Source: Methanolinea mesophila (GTDB taxonomy: Archaea; Halobacteriota; Methanomicrobia; Methanomicrobiales; Methanospirillaceae). From it: a stretch of DNA of 64,000 nucleotides. The notes under the pieces were generated by a model that was not told where the DNA came from, searched no databases, and was given only the letters and a program-made list of their open reading frames with translations. The stretch is from the NCBI RefSeq assembly GCF_017873855.1, contig NZ_JAGGKR010000001.1:1054001-1118000 (forward strand). Reading direction: 5' to 3'. Within the stretch, counting starts at the first letter, position 1. Every line of letters begins with the position of its first letter. The position numbers and the translations under genes were made by a program. Below, piece after piece: positions 30,488 through 40,399 of this stretch.

Positions 30488-30823
30488 ATGGTAACCCGAA
30501 GAACCGGTTACCCGCAGGGCCTGTGCATATCCCGTGCAGTGCGGTCCTGTGAATCGAAATGTAGGAACCAATTCCGGCCCCTCCGGGGGTCGGTCAAGAA
30601 AGAAGAGGAGGATACACCGCCGGGCCCTCCATGGATCCCCCCGGGGATTCCGGACGAGGGCCCATTCAATCGCCTTTCATCGATCTTTGGGGATAACTCC
30701 CTCACAGATGCCAGCGAGAACTACAATAGCGGAATTTCCCGGCCGGCGACCATGATCTCCCACGCGGGCTCCGGAGATCTGTCCCGGCCCGGATCCCACA
30801 ATACTATTTTTGCAGGAGCCTGA
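30488..30823 (+). other. Hairpin-rich region: candidate structured RNA or 111-codon gene
   Basis: Three strong stems occur within 175 bases: ggtaacc/ggttacc (30490-30512), ccggcccc/ggggtcgg with a tccg loop (30574-30593), and gggccctc/gagggccc enclosing a second stem atcccc/ggggat (30622-30663). The plus strand is also open from ATG 30488 to 30823 (111 codons, aagga six bases before the ATG). The product is Pro/Gly/Arg-rich without known motifs, its third-position GC is lower than in neighbours, and it runs 20 nt into aksF. I favour a structured RNA, with low certainty. Confidence 0.3.
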
Positions 30824-31769
30824 TTTCGCGAAGAATTTCTGTTCCGAATTCCCTTGTTCCCGAAGATCCCCCGAGGTCCCTGGTGCGGACCCCCCGGGCG
30901 AGTACCCGGGTGATCGCCTCCTCGATGACTGCGGCGCCGCAGGGGTCCCCGGCGTGTCCGAGGAGCATCGCTGCGCTTCTTAGTGCCGCGACGGGATTGG
31001 CCACGTTCCTGCCGGCAATGTCGGGTGCGCTCCCGTGCACGGGTTCGAACAGCGCATTCCGGTCGCCGATATTTGCGCTCGGGAGAAGCCCCAGCCCGCC
31101 TGCCAGGTAAGCCGCCACGTCGGAGAGGATGTCCCCGAAAAGATTGGTGGTCACGATCACGTCGTAGCGTCCGGGGTGCTGGAGTACGTCCAGGCAGAGC
31201 GCGTCAATATACCCTTCCTTCCAGGGGACCCCTGCCAGTTCTGCCTGCTCGATACAGATATTCCGGAAAAAAACATCCGATTTGAGTACGTTTGCCTTAT
31301 GCCCGACGGTGAGGTCCCTGCGGGAAACGGCAAGCCGGCACGCGTACCTGGCAATGCGTTCGCTCCCTTTCCTGGTTATACAGCGGAGGGTGCACGCCCG
31401 GTCCTCTTCCACGGTTTCGATACCGGAATACAACCCTTCCGTGTTCTCCCGGACGATCACCATCTCGAAACCCTCCCCCTTCACCGGGCGGATATTGGCA
31501 TAGAGGTCCAGTTCTTTCCTGATCCTGACGATTACGCTGCGGTACCCGGGGTCGGGAGGAGTGGTAACCGCACCGAAGAGGATGCTGTCCGCTGAGCGGA
31601 GCATTGCAATCTCTTCCTCGTCGATCGCGGTCCCGGTCCGCTGCCACCGTCCGTATCCCGCCTCGACAGGGAAAAATTCGAAGTCCGGGCGAAGGAGCTC
31701 CAGCGCATCCCTGGCCACGGGAATGACCTCTTTCCCTATGCCGTCCCCTTCAACAACCGCGATCCTCAT
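30804..31769 (-). CDS. aksF: Homoisocitrate / 3-isopropylmalate dehydrogenase family, probably AksF
   Basis: NAD(P)-dependent beta-decarboxylating dehydrogenase of 321 residues, start at MRIAVVEGDGIGKEV. The substrate loop and metal site are seen in VRENTEGLYSG, VGHKANVLKSD, TTNLFGDILSDVAA and the adenine-binding EPVHGSAPDIAG. The family includes LeuB, AksF and isocitrate dehydrogenase. The operon carries a homocitrate-synthase-like gene and a homoaconitase-type small subunit, so AksF, which oxidises the homoisocitrate series to longer 2-oxo acids on the way to 2-oxosuberate, is the best assignment. Its first 20 bases overlap the upstream unknown gene. Confidence 0.78.
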   Translation of the reverse strand: MRIAVVEGDGIGKEVIPVARDALELLRPDFEFFPVEAGYGRWQRTGTAIDEEEIAMLRSADSILFGAVTTPPDPGYRSVIVRIRKELDLYANIRPVKGEGFEMVIVRENTEGLYSGIETVEEDRACTLRCITRKGSERIARYACRLAVSRRDLTVGHKANVLKSDVFFRNICIEQAELAGVPWKEGYIDALCLDVLQHPGRYDVIVTTNLFGDILSDVAAYLAGGLGLLPSANIGDRNALFEPVHGSAPDIAGRNVANPVAALRSAAMLLGHAGDPCGAAVIEEAITRVLARGVRTRDLGGSSGTREFGTEILREIRLLQK

Positions 31770-32568
31770 CACGTTCCCTCCATTTGGCCAACATGCCGGA
31801 GATCGCTGAATAGATCGCGGACGGTGACGCGCCCCAGTGGACGATAACTCCTCGTTTCCCGTTCCACTCTGTAAAACCGCCCCGTTCATTCCTGCAGCAT
31901 CTGGCGATGAAGGGCTCCTCCGCCACCATGTTCAGAGGGCAGATGTCGTGGAGCTGGAACGGTTCCTCATAACACTCTTTAAGAATCTGGGAGGCGGTGA
32001 GACACCCCGCGACAGATTCTCCCCCGAGCAGGAGGTCGGCGTCCACCGTGCGGAGGAACCCCGATGCTCTGCAGGGATAGACCTCTGCATCTATCTGGGA
32101 GATATCCCGGAGCGTATGCTGGAACGAGACGTCGAGGTCGCCGAACATCCCGATCGCCTCCATGTCCCGGATCGCCGCTGAGAGTGAGGGGCGGGGAGGG
32201 GTGACATCATAGACGTACACCGTCTGGAACGCGGAGGGGTCGGGGTCGAGTACAAAGGTGATGTGTTCGTCGAGCCCGGTGAAGATCGTGCACCGGAACC
32301 CCGATTCCAGGGCCATTTGCGCGAGCCTGGCGCGGTCGTTTATCTGCACCTTTTCGGGGTACCAGTACACCTCGTCAGACCGGGCGATGACTGAGCACTC
32401 CTCCACGGCCCGCATCATGGTGCCCGGCTCCTGGCCGAGTTTCACCTCCATCACCTCGTACCCGCCCGCGGTCTGGTGCACGAGGTAGCGGGAGAGGAAA
32501 TAGACCTGATCACCGCAGGGGCGTGTGGTGGCAAACCCGATCTCCTTGCATTCCCGGGGGAAGATCAT
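31750..32568 (-). CDS. Unknown Cys-rich protein of the aks operon
   Basis: A 272-residue soluble protein I do not recognise. It starts MIFPRECKEIGFATTRPCGD with an ATGA overlap onto the end of aksE and ends 20 nt inside aksF, so it is firmly in the operon. Notable parts are a YWYPEKVQINDRARLAQMAL segment, DDTDT-free alpha/beta regions (FRCTIFTGLDEHITFVLD) and a Cys-rich C-terminal half: SVAGCLTASQI, LKECYEEP, LHDICPLN and ARCCRNERGG. These cysteines could bind metal or a cluster. No signal peptide or membrane helix is present. Confidence 0.8.
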   Translation of the reverse strand: MIFPRECKEIGFATTRPCGDQVYFLSRYLVHQTAGGYEVMEVKLGQEPGTMMRAVEECSVIARSDEVYWYPEKVQINDRARLAQMALESGFRCTIFTGLDEHITFVLDPDPSAFQTVYVYDVTPPRPSLSAAIRDMEAIGMFGDLDVSFQHTLRDISQIDAEVYPCRASGFLRTVDADLLLGGESVAGCLTASQILKECYEEPFQLHDICPLNMVAEEPFIARCCRNERGGFTEWNGKRGVIVHWGASPSAIYSAISGMLAKWRERDEDRGC

Positions 32569-33041
32569 CCTGTCTTCCTCCAGAACTCCACCAGGCCACC
32601 TGCAGAAAGAATGGAGATCATCCTCGGGGAAAGCAGACGGATGGAGTATTCTTTCCCGTCTACCTGCACCATTCCGGATTCGAGGTCCGCCGAAACCTGC
32701 TCCCCTTCCACGCACCTGCACCCGTGTTCGCATTCCATCAGCGGCAGGCCCACGTTGATGGCGTTCCGGAAGAAGATCCTGGCGAAGGAGGGTGCGATGA
32801 CCCCGGCCACCCCGGCCTCCTTCAGGGCAATGGCGGCCTGTTCCCGGGATGAGCCGCACCCGAAGTTTTTCCCCGCCACGATGACCGCCCCCTGCAACCG
32901 GGATGCCAGCCCGGGATCGAGATCTTCGAGCGCGTGTGCAGCCCATATGCTCCGGTCCTTGGTCCGTAGGTAGCGGCCGGCAATGATCAGGTCCGTATCG
33001 ACATCCTCGCCCAGGCACACCGCCCGTCCTTCGATCTTCAT
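32565..33041 (-). CDS. aksE: Homoaconitase small subunit
   Basis: The swivelling-domain subunit of the aconitase-family hydro-lyase, 158 residues. The substrate loop reads GRYLRTKD, with Y24-L25-R26-T27. In methanogen studies YLRT with Arg26 marks homoaconitase, whereas isopropylmalate isomerase has a different residue at that Arg. The GKNFGCGSSREQA loop is the conserved serine-bearing motif. It would handle homocitrate and the longer homologues in coenzyme B synthesis. It overlaps aksD by four bases and the next gene by four. Confidence 0.85.
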   Translation of the reverse strand: MKIEGRAVCLGEDVDTDLIIAGRYLRTKDRSIWAAHALEDLDPGLASRLQGAVIVAGKNFGCGSSREQAAIALKEAGVAGVIAPSFARIFFRNAINVGLPLMECEHGCRCVEGEQVSADLESGMVQVDGKEYSIRLLSPRMISILSAGGLVEFWRKTG

Positions 33042-34249
33042 GGAAATTCCTCCGGTTCCGAAATAGCCCCTTTAAGGGCGCTTGCCGCAGCGGTCGCCAC
33101 CGATGAGAGGTAGATCTCGCCGCCCACCCCCATCCGGTTCTTGAAGTTACGGTTCGCCGTCGAGAGGCAGACCTCGCCTTCCCCGAGCACTCCCATATGA
33201 GCCCCAAGGCACGGTCCGCATCCGGGCGGGAGGATGGTGCACCCCGCCTGCACCAGGTCGTTGAGGACCCCCGTTCTCACCGCCTCTTCGAGCACTGCAT
33301 GGGAGGCCGGCGCAACGATCGTCCGCACCGCGACCTTCTTTCCCCTGACCCCCGCAGCGAGCACCGCCAGGTCCGAGTACCTCCCGTTGGTGCAGGTCCC
33401 CACAAAGACCTGGTCCAGGGCTATCCCTTCGACCTCGGTCACCGGTTTCACCGTATCGACCCGGGGCGGGCAGGCCACTACCGGCACCACATCGGAGAGA
33501 TCGATTCCTATCTCCCGCTCGTAGGTGCAATCCTCCGCGGCCTGGATTGTGATCTCTTTTCCTTGTGCAGCGAGGTATCTTCTCGTGGTATGGTCAGCAT
33601 AGCACATTCCTGCCTTTGCCCCCGTTTCTACCGCGAGGTTGCAGAGGGTGAGCCGGTCGTCCATATCCAGTGAAGAGATACCGTCGCCGACGAACTCGAG
33701 AGCACGGTAGGACGCACCGTCCATCCCGAGCTTCCCCACGTAGGTCAGGGCAAGGTCCTTGGCCGATGCGGGCTCCGGAAGTCTCCCCTCGAGCGACAGG
33801 GCGATCGTCTCCGGAACCCGGAACCAGGTGCATCCTGAAGCCCAGATCGCCGCCATGTCCGTAGCACCGACGCCTGTCGCGAAAGCCCCGAAAGCACCCA
33901 CAGTACAGGTGTGGGAGTCGGCGCCCACCACGATCTCGCCGGGCAGCACCTCTCCTTCCGCCATCAGCTGGTGGGAGATCCCCCCTCCGACATCCGAGAA
34001 ACAGAATCCGTGTTTCCGCGCGAATATCCGTAATTCATGCTGGAGGACCGCGGTGACGGAATTGTTGGCCGGGGCGATGTGGTCGAACATCACGTACAAA
34101 CGGGGCGGACTGACTACGCGGTCGGCGATCTGCCGCCAGGCTTCGAGCGTCAGCACCCCCGTGCCGTCATGCACGTAAGCCCGGTCTACGGCTTTGTCGA
34201 CGAACTCTCCCGCGGGCGCCTGAAGAATACGCTCGGAAAGGGTGCTCAT
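33038..34249 (-). CDS. aksD: Homoaconitase large subunit
   Basis: The [4Fe-4S] subunit of the homoaconitase/isopropylmalate isomerase family, 403 residues. Cluster cysteines are seen in VFVGTCTNGRYSD and LPPGCGPCLGAHMG. Substrate-binding segments are FDHIAPANNS and GADSHTCTVGAFG, and the end SSVATAAASALKG is typical. The large subunits of HACN and IPMI are hard to tell apart; the call follows the small subunit encoded next. It overlaps aksA and aksE by four bases each, indicating translational coupling and stoichiometric assembly. Confidence 0.85.
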   Translation of the reverse strand: MSTLSERILQAPAGEFVDKAVDRAYVHDGTGVLTLEAWRQIADRVVSPPRLYVMFDHIAPANNSVTAVLQHELRIFARKHGFCFSDVGGGISHQLMAEGEVLPGEIVVGADSHTCTVGAFGAFATGVGATDMAAIWASGCTWFRVPETIALSLEGRLPEPASAKDLALTYVGKLGMDGASYRALEFVGDGISSLDMDDRLTLCNLAVETGAKAGMCYADHTTRRYLAAQGKEITIQAAEDCTYEREIGIDLSDVVPVVACPPRVDTVKPVTEVEGIALDQVFVGTCTNGRYSDLAVLAAGVRGKKVAVRTIVAPASHAVLEEAVRTGVLNDLVQAGCTILPPGCGPCLGAHMGVLGEGEVCLSTANRNFKNRMGVGGEIYLSSVATAAASALKGAISEPEEFP

Positions 34250-35376
34250 ACCGGTTTCTCCTTCTGGACATGACGGATCAGGGCCGTGAGAGCCTCGGGG
34301 CTGACCCCGATCTTGCTCTCCCCCAGTTCCTTCACCTCGTCGAGCACCTGGCAGATCTGCTGCTCGGAGAGGGAGTACCCGAGCGTGCCGACCACGTGCT
34401 CAAGGGCCTTCTTCCCGGTATGCTTTCCGAGGATGAACCTCCTTTCCCCACCCACCATTTCGGGGAGAAAATACTCGTAGGTCGAGGGATCTTCGAGGAT
34501 TGCAGCGATATGGATGCCACTCTCATGGGAGAACGCATGCGCACCCACGACCGGCTTGGTCCTGCTCATCGCGATCCCGGAAAACTCCTCAACCATCCGC
34601 GAGAGCCTTGTAAGGTGGCTGAGGTCGTACCGATCGACCCCCCCCTTCATCCGGAGCGCGACGAGGACCTCTTCGAGGGCCGCGTTCCCGGCACGCTCGC
34701 CGATCCCGTTCACGGTGGTGTGCAGCTGGAACGCCCCGGCCCCGGCCGCGGTGATGGTGTTGGCAGTGGCACACCCCATATCGTTATGGCAATGGGCACA
34801 GAGCGGGATCTTCACCGAGGCGACCAGCTCCCTCATGATCCGGTACATCTCTTCAGGGATCAGGCAGCCCACGGTATCTGCGAAGCTTACCAGGTCGGCG
34901 CCCCGTTCCTCTCCCTTCCGGTACACCTTTTTGAGAAATTCGGGATCCGTACGGGACGCGTCCTCGGCCGCAAACCGGACTTCAAGACCGTGGTCCTTCG
35001 CGAGCTCGATCATCCGGAGGGCGTCCTCGAGAACCAGCTCCCGGTCTTTCCGGTATTTATGCCGGATGTGCAGGTCGGAGGTGGCGATAAACACGCTCAC
35101 CATGTCGACATCGCAATCGATGGCGGCCGTTACGTCCTCCGGTCTTGCCCGGGCGAGACAACAGATACGTGCATTAAGCCCCATCTTCGTGATGGCGGTC
35201 ACGCATTGTTTTTCATACGGCGAGACGATAGGGAACCCGGCCTCGATCACCTCGACCCCGATCTCATCCAACACTCCGGCGATCTTCTGTTTCTCTTCAC
35301 AGGAGAACGAGACCCCCGGGGTCTGTTCCCCGTCTCTCAGCGTCACATCACAGATCTCAACATGGTATGGTTTCAT
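34246..35376 (-). CDS. aksA: Homocitrate synthase-type acyl-CoA condensing enzyme
   Basis: A DRE-TIM barrel enzyme condensing acetyl-CoA with a 2-oxo acid. Start at MKPYHVEICDVTLRDGEQTP with a strong gaaaggagggg site before it. The catalytic Arg-Asp-Glu set is in TLRDGEQTPGV, the metal histidines in LCAHCHNDMG and the loop in NGIGERAGNAALEE. At 376 residues it lacks the large C-terminal leucine-binding domain of LeuA, which fits AksA (homocitrate and its chain-extended homologues). CimA and NifV are the alternatives. It overlaps the TPP-enzyme gene by 20 nt upstream and aksD by 4 nt downstream. Confidence 0.8.
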   Translation of the reverse strand: MKPYHVEICDVTLRDGEQTPGVSFSCEEKQKIAGVLDEIGVEVIEAGFPIVSPYEKQCVTAITKMGLNARICCLARARPEDVTAAIDCDVDMVSVFIATSDLHIRHKYRKDRELVLEDALRMIELAKDHGLEVRFAAEDASRTDPEFLKKVYRKGEERGADLVSFADTVGCLIPEEMYRIMRELVASVKIPLCAHCHNDMGCATANTITAAGAGAFQLHTTVNGIGERAGNAALEEVLVALRMKGGVDRYDLSHLTRLSRMVEEFSGIAMSRTKPVVGAHAFSHESGIHIAAILEDPSTYEYFLPEMVGGERRFILGKHTGKKALEHVVGTLGYSLSEQQICQVLDEVKELGESKIGVSPEALTALIRHVQKEKPV

Positions 35377-36637
35377 GCTCCCCTCCTTTCGGGCATTCTC
35401 CCTCCACGATAATGGTCCGGGGGCCCGGAACCGGCCTGGAAAATAATCCCGACAAACGTTTCGTATCCCCCGCCGGGACCACCACGGGTTTTGCGAACCC
35501 CAGGTAATCACGCGGGTCGTACGCCTCTTCCTGCCCCCCGGTCATCCCCAGGCACCGGTTCCGGAGCACGATGCAGAGCAGGGGCGTCTTCTTTTCATAC
35601 ACATCGATAAGGGCCTGGATTCCAGAATGCAAGAGGGCGTAGTCCCCTATTACCGCTACTCCGGTGCTCCTCGCCCCCACAGCGACCGCGGATCCGAGCC
35701 CGTAACTGGCCACCCCCACCCCGTAGAGGGGGCTTGCGAGCAGGATCGAACAGCCGGCATCGACCGCGGCGCGTACCCCCTGTTCCTTCATCGCCAAGAA
35801 CAGTCCGAGGAACGGGCAGCCCCGGCAGAACGTGCGGTAGAACCCCCGTGACGTGAAGGTCTCCGGTGCATCACGGTGAAGGTCACCGGGCTCCACGCAC
35901 CGGTGCTCCCGGAGAAAAGGTCTTCCCAGCTCGTTGACGGCCGGCAGTTCTTCCACCCCCCCCGGGGGGGGGTATACGGTGACCGCAGCGGACTCTCCGG
36001 GTGCCGCCCCGGCCCCCACCCGCCCCCCGCTGATAGAATTGAGCGGGTTCTCCCGGGACCACGAAAAGAGCCCGTTGAACAGACGTTCTTCCCGCTGGAC
36101 CCTTCCTTTCATGGTGAGCGCAGGATTCGCGGGAGTTCCGGGCAGGTCTCTCCGCTCGCTCCGGTCCGGGCACACCTCGCAAAACAGGAGTTCCGGGGTA
36201 AGCCGGAGGATCGCAACCCGGCTGAACCGTTCGGAGGCCCGGAACGCCTCCTCCACACCCGCGAAACACGTGGCCGGCCCGGGCTCGATCACGGGCACAC
36301 GGGCGAGCTCCCCGTAGTAACGGGAGTCCTGGAGGCTCGTGGAACCTAGCGGCACGAGATCGTCCCCGGCCACCACCACCACACCCGAACCGAGCCCCTG
36401 GGTACCCGCCTGCACCAGGGGATCTGCACACGCGTTCAGCCCCGCATTCTTCATGATCACCGCCGCCCTTCTCCCTGCGAGCGAATCTCCGAGAGCATAT
36501 TCCAGGGCTACCTTCTCGTTGATCACCGGTTCTGCGGACACTCCCCTTCCGATGCCGGTCACCGGGTAACCGGGAATGGCATAAAACCTGTCTGCGCTCC
36601 GCCCGAGGGCCTGCACTATCGCATCCTCTCCCTTCAT
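35357..36637 (-). CDS. Stand-alone TPP-dependent enzyme similar to indolepyruvate oxidoreductase alpha
   Basis: A protein of 426 residues related to IorA. The pyrimidine domain has PVINEKVALEYALGDSLAG, IMKNAGLNACADPLVQAGT and LQDSRYYGELARVPV. The TPP/Mg motif is GDYALLHSGI...LRNRCLGMTGGQ, and CRGCPFLGLF matches the CPGCPHR region of IorA. It ends without the ferredoxin domain that IorA carries, and no iorB is adjacent, so a non-redox decarboxylase or an atypical oxidoreductase is possible. Start 36637 has gggaggg nine bases upstream. It lies between the radical SAM gene and aksA. A C8G9 tract (35956-35972) lies in a Pro/Gly stretch. Confidence 0.78.
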   Translation of the reverse strand: MKGEDAIVQALGRSADRFYAIPGYPVTGIGRGVSAEPVINEKVALEYALGDSLAGRRAAVIMKNAGLNACADPLVQAGTQGLGSGVVVVAGDDLVPLGSTSLQDSRYYGELARVPVIEPGPATCFAGVEEAFRASERFSRVAILRLTPELLFCEVCPDRSERRDLPGTPANPALTMKGRVQREERLFNGLFSWSRENPLNSISGGRVGAGAAPGESAAVTVYPPPGGVEELPAVNELGRPFLREHRCVEPGDLHRDAPETFTSRGFYRTFCRGCPFLGLFLAMKEQGVRAAVDAGCSILLASPLYGVGVASYGLGSAVAVGARSTGVAVIGDYALLHSGIQALIDVYEKKTPLLCIVLRNRCLGMTGGQEEAYDPRDYLGFAKPVVVPAGDTKRLSGLFSRPVPGPRTIIVEGECPKGGEHETIPC

Positions 36638-36638
36638 G

Positions 36639-37607
36639 TCACGCATCCCTCCCGGGCACCATGTCACACCCGGTGCACGCGCTGCACATGGTGACCGCGC
36701 TGCAGGGATCCAGTCCCTTCTCCCGAAGAATCCGTTCGTGGATCCTGAACAGCCTTAACAGCCTTTCCGCCGAAGGCCTGGCCCACCCGGCAAGTTCTCC
36801 GGCCGGATTTAACGGGCGCAACACCGGAATAACCCCCATTCCGGCTAGTTCCCCGATACAGTCCTCCATCTCGGCATCGGTCTCTCCAAGCCCGATGATT
36901 ACGTTGGAGTACACACGGTTTTTCCCGAAGACCTCAACGGACCGGGCGAGGATGCGGAGGATCTCCCGGCGGTCGAGACCGGGGCACATGGTCCGGAAGA
37001 TCCTGTCCGTTGCGGCCTCGACGTTGAACTTCACCTCCGCCGCTCCCTCGGCACGCAGCCTGTCCGGAGTCCCGAAAACCGGATAGATGGAGACACCGAT
37101 AGGAACCGAGAACGGCGCAAGGGCACGGATCACCGAGATCACGTACTTCTCCTCCTCTTTCGGGTCGTATGCCACCCCGCTGGTTATGGAAATGGCATCG
37201 ATCCGGTCCCTGACCCGTCCGACCATTTCCCGGATCTCGGCTACGCTCTTCCGCTTCCCTCCGAGGGCGGGGACCCTGCAGTAGCGGCAATGATAGATGC
37301 ACCCTGCGCTGACGGTGATGTATGCCTGGCGGGGGCAGTGGAGTGCAACCGGTTCGAGAATTCCCTCGATGCATTCGCGGCCGATACAGAGTACGGCGAT
37401 CCCGCTTCCCCGGTGCTCGAGGACCAGTGTTCCTTCCTCCTCGACCGGGATCCTTACCCTGCGGCCCGCGACTGAGAAGAAGACCGAGCCTTCACCGCCT
37501 GCCCCGGGGCCTGCCGTCGACACGGCAAGGTAGTCGTCTGCCGGCAGACCGGTGATCCGTGCGGATCCCGCAGCGAGAATCCCCGCCTTCAACTCGTCCC
37601 ATTCCAT
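36639..37607 (-). CDS. Radical SAM protein of the aks/marker-11 operon
   Basis: A radical SAM enzyme of 322 residues starting MEWDELKAGILAAGS. An N-terminal domain of about 95 residues precedes the SAM-cluster motif CIYHCRYC. The barrel includes ISITSGVAYDPKEEE, VKFNVEAATDRIF and NVIIGLGETDAEMEDC, which are biotin-synthase- and lipoyl-synthase-like. The C-terminus has a second cysteine group, DPCSAVTMCSACTGCDMVPG, that could hold an auxiliary cluster. The reaction is unknown. Its start overlaps the marker-11 gene by 19 nt, and one base separates its stop from the TPP-enzyme start. Confidence 0.85.
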   Translation of the reverse strand: MEWDELKAGILAAGSARITGLPADDYLAVSTAGPGAGGEGSVFFSVAGRRVRIPVEEEGTLVLEHRGSGIAVLCIGRECIEGILEPVALHCPRQAYITVSAGCIYHCRYCRVPALGGKRKSVAEIREMVGRVRDRIDAISITSGVAYDPKEEEKYVISVIRALAPFSVPIGVSIYPVFGTPDRLRAEGAAEVKFNVEAATDRIFRTMCPGLDRREILRILARSVEVFGKNRVYSNVIIGLGETDAEMEDCIGELAGMGVIPVLRPLNPAGELAGWARPSAERLLRLFRIHERILREKGLDPCSAVTMCSACTGCDMVPGRDA

Positions 37608-38482
37608 AACCCGAGTGCCTCCTCGTACCGGGTGTAAAAGGGTATCGCCGCGACCGCCCCGATGATACCCCTGCCTTCCATCCGGATGTCCAGGGTTCCG
37701 TCGCATATCCGGGGGATCTTTGTCCTTTCCACCTCGCCCCGTTTCACCTGCTCCCCGAATGGCCTAAGTTCCGAAGGATCAAATCCGGTGAATGCAGCCA
37801 TACCTGTTTCATCCGAAAGAGTATACCGCCCCAGGAGGTCCTGGAAGGCGCCGATGAGCCTTCCGGGTTCGGAAGTGGCGAACTCGCAGACGATGCTCAC
37901 GCAGTTCTTGGTCCGGTACGGGACCGGAAAGAGTTGGACGATGGTATGAGAGAGATACCGGCTAAACTCGTCTTCAACCGCCCGGGCGATATTGTGGCTG
38001 AGGGTCCATGTGGCCCCTTCTTCCGGGGTATCGGTGTCGTCGACCCCGATCAGGACCCGTTGCCTGCGGGGGAGCCAGATAGTCGACCCTGCCTGCTTTC
38101 CGCCTCCGGCGGGATCGGTCCTGCACCGGATGACTCCGCCCGCATAGGACCGGCAACTTGCCGCACCGACCCCTCCACCGCCGATTCCAAGGTAGGAGAT
38201 CTCTATCTCATCTTCATGGACCCCGACACCGGATATCCCCGCGGGAAATTTCGATCCCTCAAGTTTAAGGTCCGCATGGCCGGAACGGCAAAGATATCGC
38301 ATAGTCCCTCCCACATTCCGGGCGGACTCGACCACCGGGCTCTGGGGATAGTGCTTCCCGCTCCACATGGCTCCCCCCACACAGTCGAAGAACTCCACGA
38401 CCTCGACTTTCCTCCCGTCGGGAGACGCGAGCGCAGTGATTTGGGGATAACGGATAGTGTAGGGGTCAGAAAGTTTCACCAT
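37589..38482 (-). CDS. Methanogenesis marker protein 11
   Basis: A 297-residue member of the methanogen-restricted marker-11 family. It contains VLIGVDDTDTPEEGATWTLS, the GxDDTDT motif shared with the ATP-dependent TiaS-type fold, plus GIGGGGVGAASC upstream and TKNCVSIVCEF and ETGMAAFTGF after it. The biochemical role is not known; the fold suggests ATP-dependent activation or small-molecule binding. It is the second gene of the operon, overlapping its paralogue by 17 nt and the radical SAM gene by 19 nt. Confidence 0.85.
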   Translation of the reverse strand: MVKLSDPYTIRYPQITALASPDGRKVEVVEFFDCVGGAMWSGKHYPQSPVVESARNVGGTMRYLCRSGHADLKLEGSKFPAGISGVGVHEDEIEISYLGIGGGGVGAASCRSYAGGVIRCRTDPAGGGKQAGSTIWLPRRQRVLIGVDDTDTPEEGATWTLSHNIARAVEDEFSRYLSHTIVQLFPVPYRTKNCVSIVCEFATSEPGRLIGAFQDLLGRYTLSDETGMAAFTGFDPSELRPFGEQVKRGEVERTKIPRICDGTLDIRMEGRGIIGAVAAIPFYTRYEEALGLWNGTS

Positions 38483-39419
38483 ACAAACCCGCCGCCTCGA
38501 TACCCCGGTTCGCCCAGAGCACCGCCCCGATCGCCCCTATTCTTCCTTTCCGCTGGAAATCGTCGATGAACCTGATACCAAGCCGCCGGGCCTCCTCCTC
38601 CGCATCCGCAAGAGAAAGGAGGTCTGTCTTAACCCTGCGGGCAAAGTCTGTTTCGGGAACCTCGATACCCCGGTACACCGCGATACCTGTATCCCCGGAG
38701 AACGTCCGCGCTTCCACATACTCCTTGACACAGGAGAGCAGTTCTTCAACCGCTCCCGGCCTCACCGCAAAGTTCAGTGCGGAAGAGACGCAGTTCGTGG
38801 TCTTCTTGGGGGCCTCCGGGTTGAGCTGGACAAGCCGCATATCAAGGAATTCCACGCCCGGGATGCGGCATTCCTTCCCGCAATTGAGGGCTGTCACCCA
38901 CGTGGCCCCTTTCTCCTTCGTATCGGTGTCATCGATCCCGATGGTCACCTTCTCATAGAGGGGACTCACTATCCTGACCCGGTTCGCCCGGGCCCCGCCT
39001 ACCGAGAGATCCTCCTCGTCCGGGTATTCCGCCCGGACTACTCCGGGGGCCTGGGGCAGGCAGGCGGCGACACCCACGCCTGCTCCTGCGATCCCGGCCC
39101 ACGAGGTTATCACCTGATCTCCTTCCACCCCGACCCCTTCGAGGGCCTGGCCCCCTATATCCTTTGAGGCGGCCCCGAACCTTACCGGGTAACTCCCGAG
39201 TTTCGCCCGGAGGGTGAGCGTGGATCCTTCGACCCTGCATGACTGGGTGGCTCCCCCTGCTCTGAGACGGTTGGCCGCATCCCATTCCACCGGCCCGCGG
39301 GCCGAGCACTGCTCGATTATCTCGGCCACGCCGGCCCGTTCATCAACCATAACAAGAAAACGGCCGCAAAATAGAGTGCCGAAACGTTCCTTTACCTTAT
39401 CGGGGGTGCAGGTGATCAT
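38466..39419 (-). CDS. Second marker-11-like paralogue
   Basis: A 317-residue protein clearly homologous to its downstream neighbour. The same landmarks occur in the same order: GIAGAGVGVAAC, VTIGIDDTDTKEKGATWVTA, KTTNCVSSALNF, GDTGIAVYRG and RIGAIGAVLWANRG. The start chosen is the ATG at 39419, which has ggtga eight bases upstream; an ATG at 39461 is in frame. It is first in the operon behind a TATA box. Two non-identical paralogues in tandem suggest a heteromeric complex or two substrates. Confidence 0.8.
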   Translation of the reverse strand: MITCTPDKVKERFGTLFCGRFLVMVDERAGVAEIIEQCSARGPVEWDAANRLRAGGATQSCRVEGSTLTLRAKLGSYPVRFGAASKDIGGQALEGVGVEGDQVITSWAGIAGAGVGVAACLPQAPGVVRAEYPDEEDLSVGGARANRVRIVSPLYEKVTIGIDDTDTKEKGATWVTALNCGKECRIPGVEFLDMRLVQLNPEAPKKTTNCVSSALNFAVRPGAVEELLSCVKEYVEARTFSGDTGIAVYRGIEVPETDFARRVKTDLLSLADAEEEARRLGIRFIDDFQRKGRIGAIGAVLWANRGIEAAGLYGETF

Positions 39420-39514: not shown

Positions 39515-40399
39515 TCAGAGGATCTTGTGCAGGTCGATCTTGTAGGGGCCGAGGGTCCCGCCAAAGTTCCCTGCACTGATGAATTTCACCCCGGGAACGT
39601 TGACCGCGGCCTTGATTCCTGCTGCCATGGCATCCGCCACGCACTTCTCGTCCAACCCGTCTATCACGATCTCGTAGAGCGCTTTGACACCGGCAGGAAC
39701 CTTTGTATCGGGCACCTTCTCCCGGAGGGTTGGGCAGTACTTCTCGTTCGTGCTCGCAGGCATGAACTTGTACTTCTTGGACCCCACCTTCGAGCCGCTG
39801 GCCACTACTCCGCCGGGGAAACTGGTAATGACCCCGCACACGTCACGAATCGCGTCGACCGCAGCCTCGGCACCCATGAGGGCGGCCATCTGGTTCTCTC
39901 CCATCACGAAGAAGTTTCCTCCGGCTACACCTTTGACGATGCCGAATTCTTCTTCTCCCACGTATTCGCCCTCCATAATGGGGATCACCCAGCACTTCCT
40001 GCCGCCGACCTCCTTCTGGTATTCGTACCCGTCCCCGAAGAAATGCAGTTTGACCGCAATCTTCTCTTCCGCGTTCGGAAGACCGTCGAACACCGCGGTG
40101 GTCGCCGAAGTGAGGACGCACTCGGCGAGCCGCTCAACGACCTGCTCTTTCAATTTCTTTTTTCCGGCACATATGAGGATGGCCGCACCCGGTCTTCCGT
40201 CGGGAGTCGCCTCCGGAGGGAGGAGCCCCTCGATCCCGGCCTCGCATGGACAGCCTATCGCCGACGTCGCGAATCCGGTCGCTTCGGTTGCCGCTTTCAA
40301 TGCCCATTCTTCCGTCACCGCGGTGATGATGATCCGCGAGATCCAGGTCGGGAACGCCTCTGCATAGGTATCCTCGATTGGTACGCCGTTTATCTCCAT
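39515..40399 (-). CDS. ftr: Formylmethanofuran:tetrahydromethanopterin formyltransferase
   Basis: Second step of methanogenesis: transfers the formyl group from formylmethanofuran to H4MPT. The 294-residue protein has the standard Ftr start MEINGVPIEDTYAEAFPTW and conserved GFATSAIGCPCEAG and GVVASGSKVGSKKYKFMPAS segments. A gaggtag ribosome binding site sits 6 nt upstream. It is upstream of the aks/marker-11 operon on the same strand but separated by that operon's own promoter. Confidence 0.96.
   Translation of the reverse strand: MEINGVPIEDTYAEAFPTWISRIIITAVTEEWALKAATEATGFATSAIGCPCEAGIEGLLPPEATPDGRPGAAILICAGKKKLKEQVVERLAECVLTSATTAVFDGLPNAEEKIAVKLHFFGDGYEYQKEVGGRKCWVIPIMEGEYVGEEEFGIVKGVAGGNFFVMGENQMAALMGAEAAVDAIRDVCGVITSFPGGVVASGSKVGSKKYKFMPASTNEKYCPTLREKVPDTKVPAGVKALYEIVIDGLDEKCVADAMAAGIKAAVNVPGVKFISAGNFGGTLGPYKIDLHKIL

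Follow-up and report, generated by a model that had tools for sequence, protein, structure and literature searches.

Which step is catalysed by a radical SAM protein whose gene lies among the genes for coenzyme B (CoB) synthesis? Biological methane formation depends on CoB, in which the last carbon of a heptanoyl chain bears a thiol. AksADEF-type enzymes make 2-oxosuberate for CoB, and the route includes a semialdehyde intermediate (PMC3087415). As of 2025, CoB biosynthesis was still partly unknown (PMC12068725). Here, we analysed a window of 64,000 nucleotides from Methanolinea mesophila, a methanogen that its relatives place in the Methanomicrobiales. The window contains such a gene, which we call rSAM and which we studied together with its homologues and their gene neighbourhoods. 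The first-pass annotation of the window had proposed that the protein inserts sulfur, with a role either in forming the thiol of 7-mercaptoheptanoate or in a modification served by a pair of marker-11 proteins.

The radical SAM protein and its conserved cysteines

The rSAM protein belongs to the radical SAM superfamily: its CX3CX2C motif, already recognised in the first-pass annotation, is invariant, Pfam Radical_SAM (PF04055) scored 51 bits against a gathering score of 29.5, and the Foldseek matches are to radical SAM structures. The positions of the motifs and of the neighbouring genes are given in Table 1. Across 101 homologues, C103, C107, C110, C208, C308, C311 and C314 are 100% conserved and C91 is kept in 98%; in a narrower set of 50 orthologues and 12 paralogues, all of these cysteines, including C91, reach 100%. 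This invariance far exceeds chance. The C-terminal group had been described as CSAVTMCSACTGC. Its last three cysteines (C308, C311 and C314) do not vary, so the proposed second cysteine group survived the comparison with homologues, whereas its first cysteine, C302, is variable, with R as the commonest residue (42%). The groups listed earlier are thus present, but C91 and C208 had been overlooked.

Table 1. Features of the rSAM locus (positions in the 64,000-nucleotide window)
Feature	Position	Strand	Basis or remark
Ftr, formylmethanofuran:H4MPT formyltransferase	39515..40399	(-)	Flanking landmark
m11b, divergent marker-11 protein	38466..39419	(-)	193 bits, below cut-off; start inferred from relatives
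m11a, canonical methanogenesis marker 11	37589..38482	(-)	TIGR03280, 310 bits (over cut-off); TiaS TCKD domain
rSAM, 322 aa, subject of study	36639..37607	(-)	ORF, Pfam, conservation, AlphaFold2, Foldseek
C91 of rSAM	37335..37337	(-)	HCP motif; conserved; possible auxiliary ligand
C103-x3-C107-x2-C110 of rSAM (CIYHCRYC)	37278..37301	(-)	Radical SAM [4Fe-4S] motif
C208 of rSAM	36984..36986	(-)	MCPG motif; invariant; possible auxiliary ligand
C308-x2-C311-x2-C314 of rSAM (TMCSACTGC)	36666..36686	(-)	C-terminal cysteines; presumed auxiliary Fe-S ligands
TPP enzyme	35357..36637	(-)	IOR-alpha-like, 130 bits, far under cut-off
AksA-type homocitrate synthase	34246..35376	(-)	
AksD-type homoaconitase large subunit	33038..34249	(-)	
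AksE-type homoaconitase small subunit	32565..33041	(-)	
DUF7714	31750..32568	(-)	PF24830; within operon, outside mobile/lost block
AksF-type homoisocitrate dehydrogenase	30804..31769	(-)	

An AlphaFold2 model built from a 75-sequence alignment had a pLDDT of 95.8 and a pTM of 0.92. Its top matches in a Foldseek search of the PDB were biotin synthase (8vcw), HydE (3ciw) and lipoyl synthase (5exk). The resemblance of the barrel to biotin and lipoyl synthases, noted earlier, was thus borne out, and the fold predicted by the model is nearest to these synthases. In the phage collection searched, no match was found.

The best-scoring named models were variant_rSAM (NF045502; 60 bits against a cut-off of 125), MSMEG_0568 (TIGR04043; 57 against 304) and LipS2 (NF053743; 48 against 270), every one well under its cut-off, and LipS2 was rejected on that score. 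LipA was rejected because the lipA model gave 20 bits against a cut-off of 310 and both LipA motifs (N-terminal CX4CX5C and C-terminal RSSY) are absent from the 322-aa sequence. In the case of BioB, rejection followed from the lack of a match of rSAM itself to the BioB model at E 0.1 and from the adjoining genes, which are Aks genes and not a bio operon. The bioB model is matched by 63 of 75 relatives with an E-value of 0.001 or less, and all 75 family members tested match the LipS2 model as well as a lipoyl synthase model. By test, rSAM lies outside LipS2, BioB and LipA; it may work in a like manner.

Judged by its sequence, the nearest named family of known chemistry would be LipS2. This component of the archaeal-type lipoyl synthase attaches sulfur to an octanoyl group at its last carbon, with C85, C276, C279 and probably H178 as the ligands of its auxiliary cluster (PMC9585515). 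Both proteins have the radical SAM barrel, and the product of LipS2 (NF053743; C8 of octanoyl-lysine) is, as in CoB, a medium acyl chain with a thiol at its end. The C-terminal C-x2-C of the LipS2 auxiliary cluster (C276 and C279 in T. kodakarensis, PMC9585515) may correspond to the invariant CxxCxxC of rSAM, the other ligands being not securely aligned. In contrast to LipS2, rSAM has a third C-terminal cysteine, C91 ahead of the radical SAM motif, C208 and an additional N-terminal domain of about 90 aa, and no LipS1 or lipoate genes were seen adjoining it. The best structural and profile match is the type II biotin synthase of anaerobes, which has a [4Fe-5S] auxiliary cluster (8vdw and 8vcw taken as examples); in 8vdw, the biotin synthase of V. 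parvula, one cysteine aligns with C208. However, the identity is only about 20% and confined to the barrel, and rSAM has the CxxCxxC tail and no dethiobiotin context. Those members of variant_rSAM and MSMEG_0568 that occur in MCR-bearing genomes also have the CxxCxxC at the C-terminus and in some cases lie after m11a, but the radical SAM cysteines of these families are spaced otherwise.

The CoB gene block, its inversion and its loss

From upstream to downstream, the genes are m11b, m11a, rSAM, the TPP enzyme gene, AksA, AksD, AksE, DUF7714 and AksF. Adjacent genes in this row of nine share 4-20 bases or are separated by a single base, so we read them as one operon, in agreement with the earlier placement of rSAM. 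At 426 aa, the TPP enzyme falls short of the 595 positions of the model for the alpha subunit of indolepyruvate oxidoreductase, to which it is related; it carries the GD...N thiamine motif, and we predict that it is a 2-oxosuberate decarboxylase. Against XcbA, a family involved in coenzyme M synthesis, DUF7714 scored 59 bits, where the cut-off is 150. Because of this score and its retention in CoB auxotrophs, DUF7714 may concern another cofactor.

The block m11a-rSAM-TPP enzyme-AksADEF is kept across Methanomicrobiales. In 20 of 20 diverse Methanomicrobia loci, m11a adjoins rSAM, and the TPP enzyme and AksADEF genes are also alongside in 19, the sole exception being the locus of M. petauri (L039). 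The class sample contained rSAM in 116 of 119 genomes; it was absent from G060, G105 and G110. As m11b is missing from G060 too, its lack of rSAM is possibly an assembly gap.

G105 (locus L144) is Methanomicrobium mobile BP, in which the order is Ftr, m11b, a gap, DUF7714, a second gap and nfo. The first gap corresponds to m11a, rSAM, the TPP enzyme gene, AksA, AksD and AksE, and the second to AksF; whole-genome searches for the missing block genes found no copy elsewhere. M. mobile requires CoB according to Table 1 of PMC10658910, citing Kuhner 1991, whose title refers to CoB substitution in M. mobile (PMID 1746950); the running text of PMC10658910 treats the 'mobile' factor as unresolved. 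Two more Methanomicrobium genomes have the same loss pattern, so that rSAM is gone together with the Aks and TPP enzyme genes in the CoB-requiring organism and in two congeners. A separate loss of the block was found in another family, in Methanocorpusculum RGIG2143. In M. parvum XII and at the loci L163 and L167, the genes m11a-rSAM-TPP-AksA-D-E-F are inverted as a unit between m11b and DUF7714. From the block loss and the unit inversion, we conclude that the functional block consists of seven genes, with m11b and DUF7714 outside it. The marker-11 pair as a whole was therefore rejected as the partner of rSAM, and the earlier suggestion of a role served by the pair is half right: m11a does travel with rSAM, but loss of the block leaves m11b, like DUF7714, in place. 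A Fisher test of the co-loss gave a P of about 0.004, a value that treats related genomes as independent and is not to be leaned on; the numbers are small, the full block having been lost twice independently and part of it once, all in genomes that are related. On the gene order, the co-loss in M. mobile and the co-inversion, rSAM is very probably a member of the CoB biosynthesis pathway of Methanomicrobiales and their relatives.

The partial loss concerns M. petauri and three relatives in the Methanocorpusculum group (one of the four genomes, L166, is small and partial), which have lost the TPP enzyme and AksDEF and have retained m11a and rSAM; every key cysteine of the M. petauri rSAM is intact. 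Among the Methanomicrobiales genomes checked for both, m11a and rSAM were never found one without the other. Because this group keeps rSAM without the TPP enzyme and AksDEF, the loss of rSAM is nested within the loss of Aks, which is the pattern expected of a downstream step. In its simplest reading, the pattern suggests that m11a and rSAM come into play once chain synthesis is complete and work on something that these gut archaea can obtain. M. petauri also retains an AksA-like synthase (58% identity; G368:C13:22289-23410) despite missing the TPP enzyme and AksDEF; it is possibly a nitrogenase homocitrate synthase.

Two further observations were made around the block. A free-standing ORF of about 75 aa that resembles the N-terminal domain of rSAM (its first ~86 residues) lies just before DUF7714 in several genomes of the Methanocorpusculum group (L162:11007-11240, L163:8475-8741, L164:18042-18281, L167:17918-18169 and L040:7449-7715). 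It persists in RGIG2143, where the full rSAM was lost, and is either a remnant or a functional small protein. A marker-11 protein resembling m11b (49% identity) was found outside the methanogens proper, on a contig titled Candidatus Sifarchaeum (L170:2259-3197).

Homologues, paralogues and neighbouring sulfur genes

Strong rSAM homologues were found in the families f8 (inferred to be Methanosarcinaceae), f22, f14, f7, f30 and f31 and in a few others; those of Methanomassiliicoccales scored 237 and 208 bits. In f14 (Methanocellales-like) and f7, rSAM likewise lies within an rSAM-TPP-Aks cluster, and the Methanosarcinaceae homologue does not adjoin Aks genes. No homologue, or at best a very weak one, was found in Methanocaldococcus, Methanothermococcus, a Methanobacteriaceae genome or the other class I methanogens tested; of the groups tested, the Methanococci and most Methanobacteria are without rSAM. 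As class I methanogens make CoB without rSAM, the step is done otherwise there. Among the class I genomes tested, Methanobrevibacter cuticularis stands apart in having a full variant_rSAM protein (375 bits; G360:C44:63303-64337, L258). In the 13 MCR-bearing genomes without a strong homologue that we followed up, the rSAM proteins present are distant variants or fragments. Where the C-terminus could be read, most of them finish in a Cys-x2-Cys-x2-Cys tail of similar kind; in the MCR-bearing genomes G173 and G270, a variant with the C-terminal CxxCxxC comes directly after m11a.

A second rSAM clade was found outside the CoB operon, with 12 loci in Methanomicrobiales, 9 of which group in the tree with 4 loci of f8. 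Its neighbours include SepCysS, MetY, MetX, CysK, SufS, NcsA, LarE, ThiI, MoeB and FdhD. At least two of these sulfur genes were present in 15 of 16 paralogue loci (10-18 kb each), against matches in 4 of 27 other non-operon rSAM loci, which formed the comparison set. In the tree, two of those four control loci, L117 (f14) and L121 (f7), stem from separate duplications. Since both the paralogue clade and these separate duplicates have sulfur neighbours, the sulfur context recurs for this enzyme family.

Possible routes to the CoB thiol

The link to CoB in the earlier proposal of a 7-mercaptoheptanoate role is upheld by the gene order and the gene losses; sulfur insertion itself we infer from the kinship with LipS2, BioB and LipA and from the sulfur islands of the paralogues. 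The semialdehyde of the CoB route is presumably 7-oxoheptanoate. With an aldehyde in place at C7 of the accepted precursor, no unactivated carbon needs to be attacked, and the chemistry does not call for radical C-H activation. A published proposal for the thiol is reductive thiolation by a COG1900 protein (Mmp16/L-ASST) (PMC12068725). For CoM and homocysteine, the equivalent conversion of an aldehyde to a thiol is carried out by COG1900 proteins (Mmp16/ComF and L-aspartate semialdehyde sulfurtransferase; PMC12068725), but they are an unrelated family, are not radical SAM proteins and are retained when the CoB block is lost. A COG1900 protein may be the CoB thiolase.

A less likely but real possibility is that rSAM serves the CoB pathway without inserting sulfur, its second cluster acting in electron transfer or substrate binding for a different radical step and the thiol coming from a reductive thiolase of the COG1900 type. 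Auxiliary clusters serve other ends in many radical SAM enzymes (PMC11138216), COG1900-type matches were present in 11 of 11 genomes tested, and class I methanogens manage without rSAM. However, CoB has no other known need for a radical step, and the paralogues sit within sulfur islands. Proteins of both kinds, one like Mmp16 and one like COG1900a, persist in M. mobile, whose need for CoB is therefore not accounted for by a loss of COG1900. Moreover, Mmp16, which is the coenzyme M synthase, is missing from G001 (Methanoculleus group) and G135 (Methanocella-like), where the only match is of the COG1900a type.

The contiguity of m11a-rSAM-TPP-AksADE means that one deletion could remove rSAM, and the co-loss might then reflect linkage, with rSAM and m11a modifying methyl-CoM reductase (MCR) or another methanogenesis protein. 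Several modifications are found on MCR, and two of the enzymes that introduce them belong to the radical SAM proteins (PMC11796369, PMC5943407); m11a is a methanogen 'marker' protein, and M. petauri retains m11a and rSAM without the Aks genes. We nevertheless consider this improbable: rSAM was lost only alongside Aks, in two separate lineages, and the AksF of M. mobile, which lies beyond the retained DUF7714, was lost as well, apparently by function more than by position. In addition, both known MCR-modifying radical SAM enzymes are B12-dependent (PMC11796369, PMC8828468), and no B12 domain was seen in rSAM. A more general deliverer of mobilised sulfur (for example, derived from cysteine or other non-sulfide sources), with CoB as one client, would fit the paralogue clade beside SepCysS, MetY/MetX, CysK, SufS, LarE, ThiI and MoeB; but the copy in the operon keeps strictly to the CoB block, and such an enzyme would be retained in M. 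mobile, which makes this role very improbable.

Sulfur insertion is the leading idea for rSAM, given the parallel with LipS2, a CxxCxxC tail that does not vary and the sulfur islands of the paralogues. In the proposed route, AksA, AksDE and AksF would make 2-oxosuberate, the TPP enzyme would turn it into 7-oxoheptanoate, and rSAM, acting after these enzymes, would introduce the sulfur of the thiol at C7 of the resulting seven-carbon chain. The sulfur would come from a putative second Fe-S cluster on C308, C311 and C314 plus C91 and/or C208, as in LipS2 and biotin synthase. TiaS phosphorylates a carbonyl and so activates it for amine attack; the TiaS-type kinase domain (TCKD) of m11a therefore suggests an amide-ligase role, in which m11a would activate the carboxylate as an acyl phosphate and join it to phosphothreonine. 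The thiol step and the amide step could also take place in the reverse order. That rSAM is a late CoB enzyme that forms the thiol of 7-mercaptoheptanoate with m11a as its partner is our best explanation, the sulfur step being about as likely as not. We put forward only tentatively, as rather unlikely in full, the wider scheme in which the CoB thiol is formed, on the C7 aldehyde or on its phosphothreonine amide, by a radical SAM enzyme that inserts sulfur and would join the biotin and lipoyl synthases as an additional type, and marker 11 is the amide ligase, so that the pathway is completed.

The gene-loss pattern narrows the candidates for the missing steps of CoB biosynthesis to the radical SAM enzyme, the marker-11 protein and the TPP enzyme. 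If the proposed route is true, the widespread 'methanogenesis marker' Mmp11 would gain a function.
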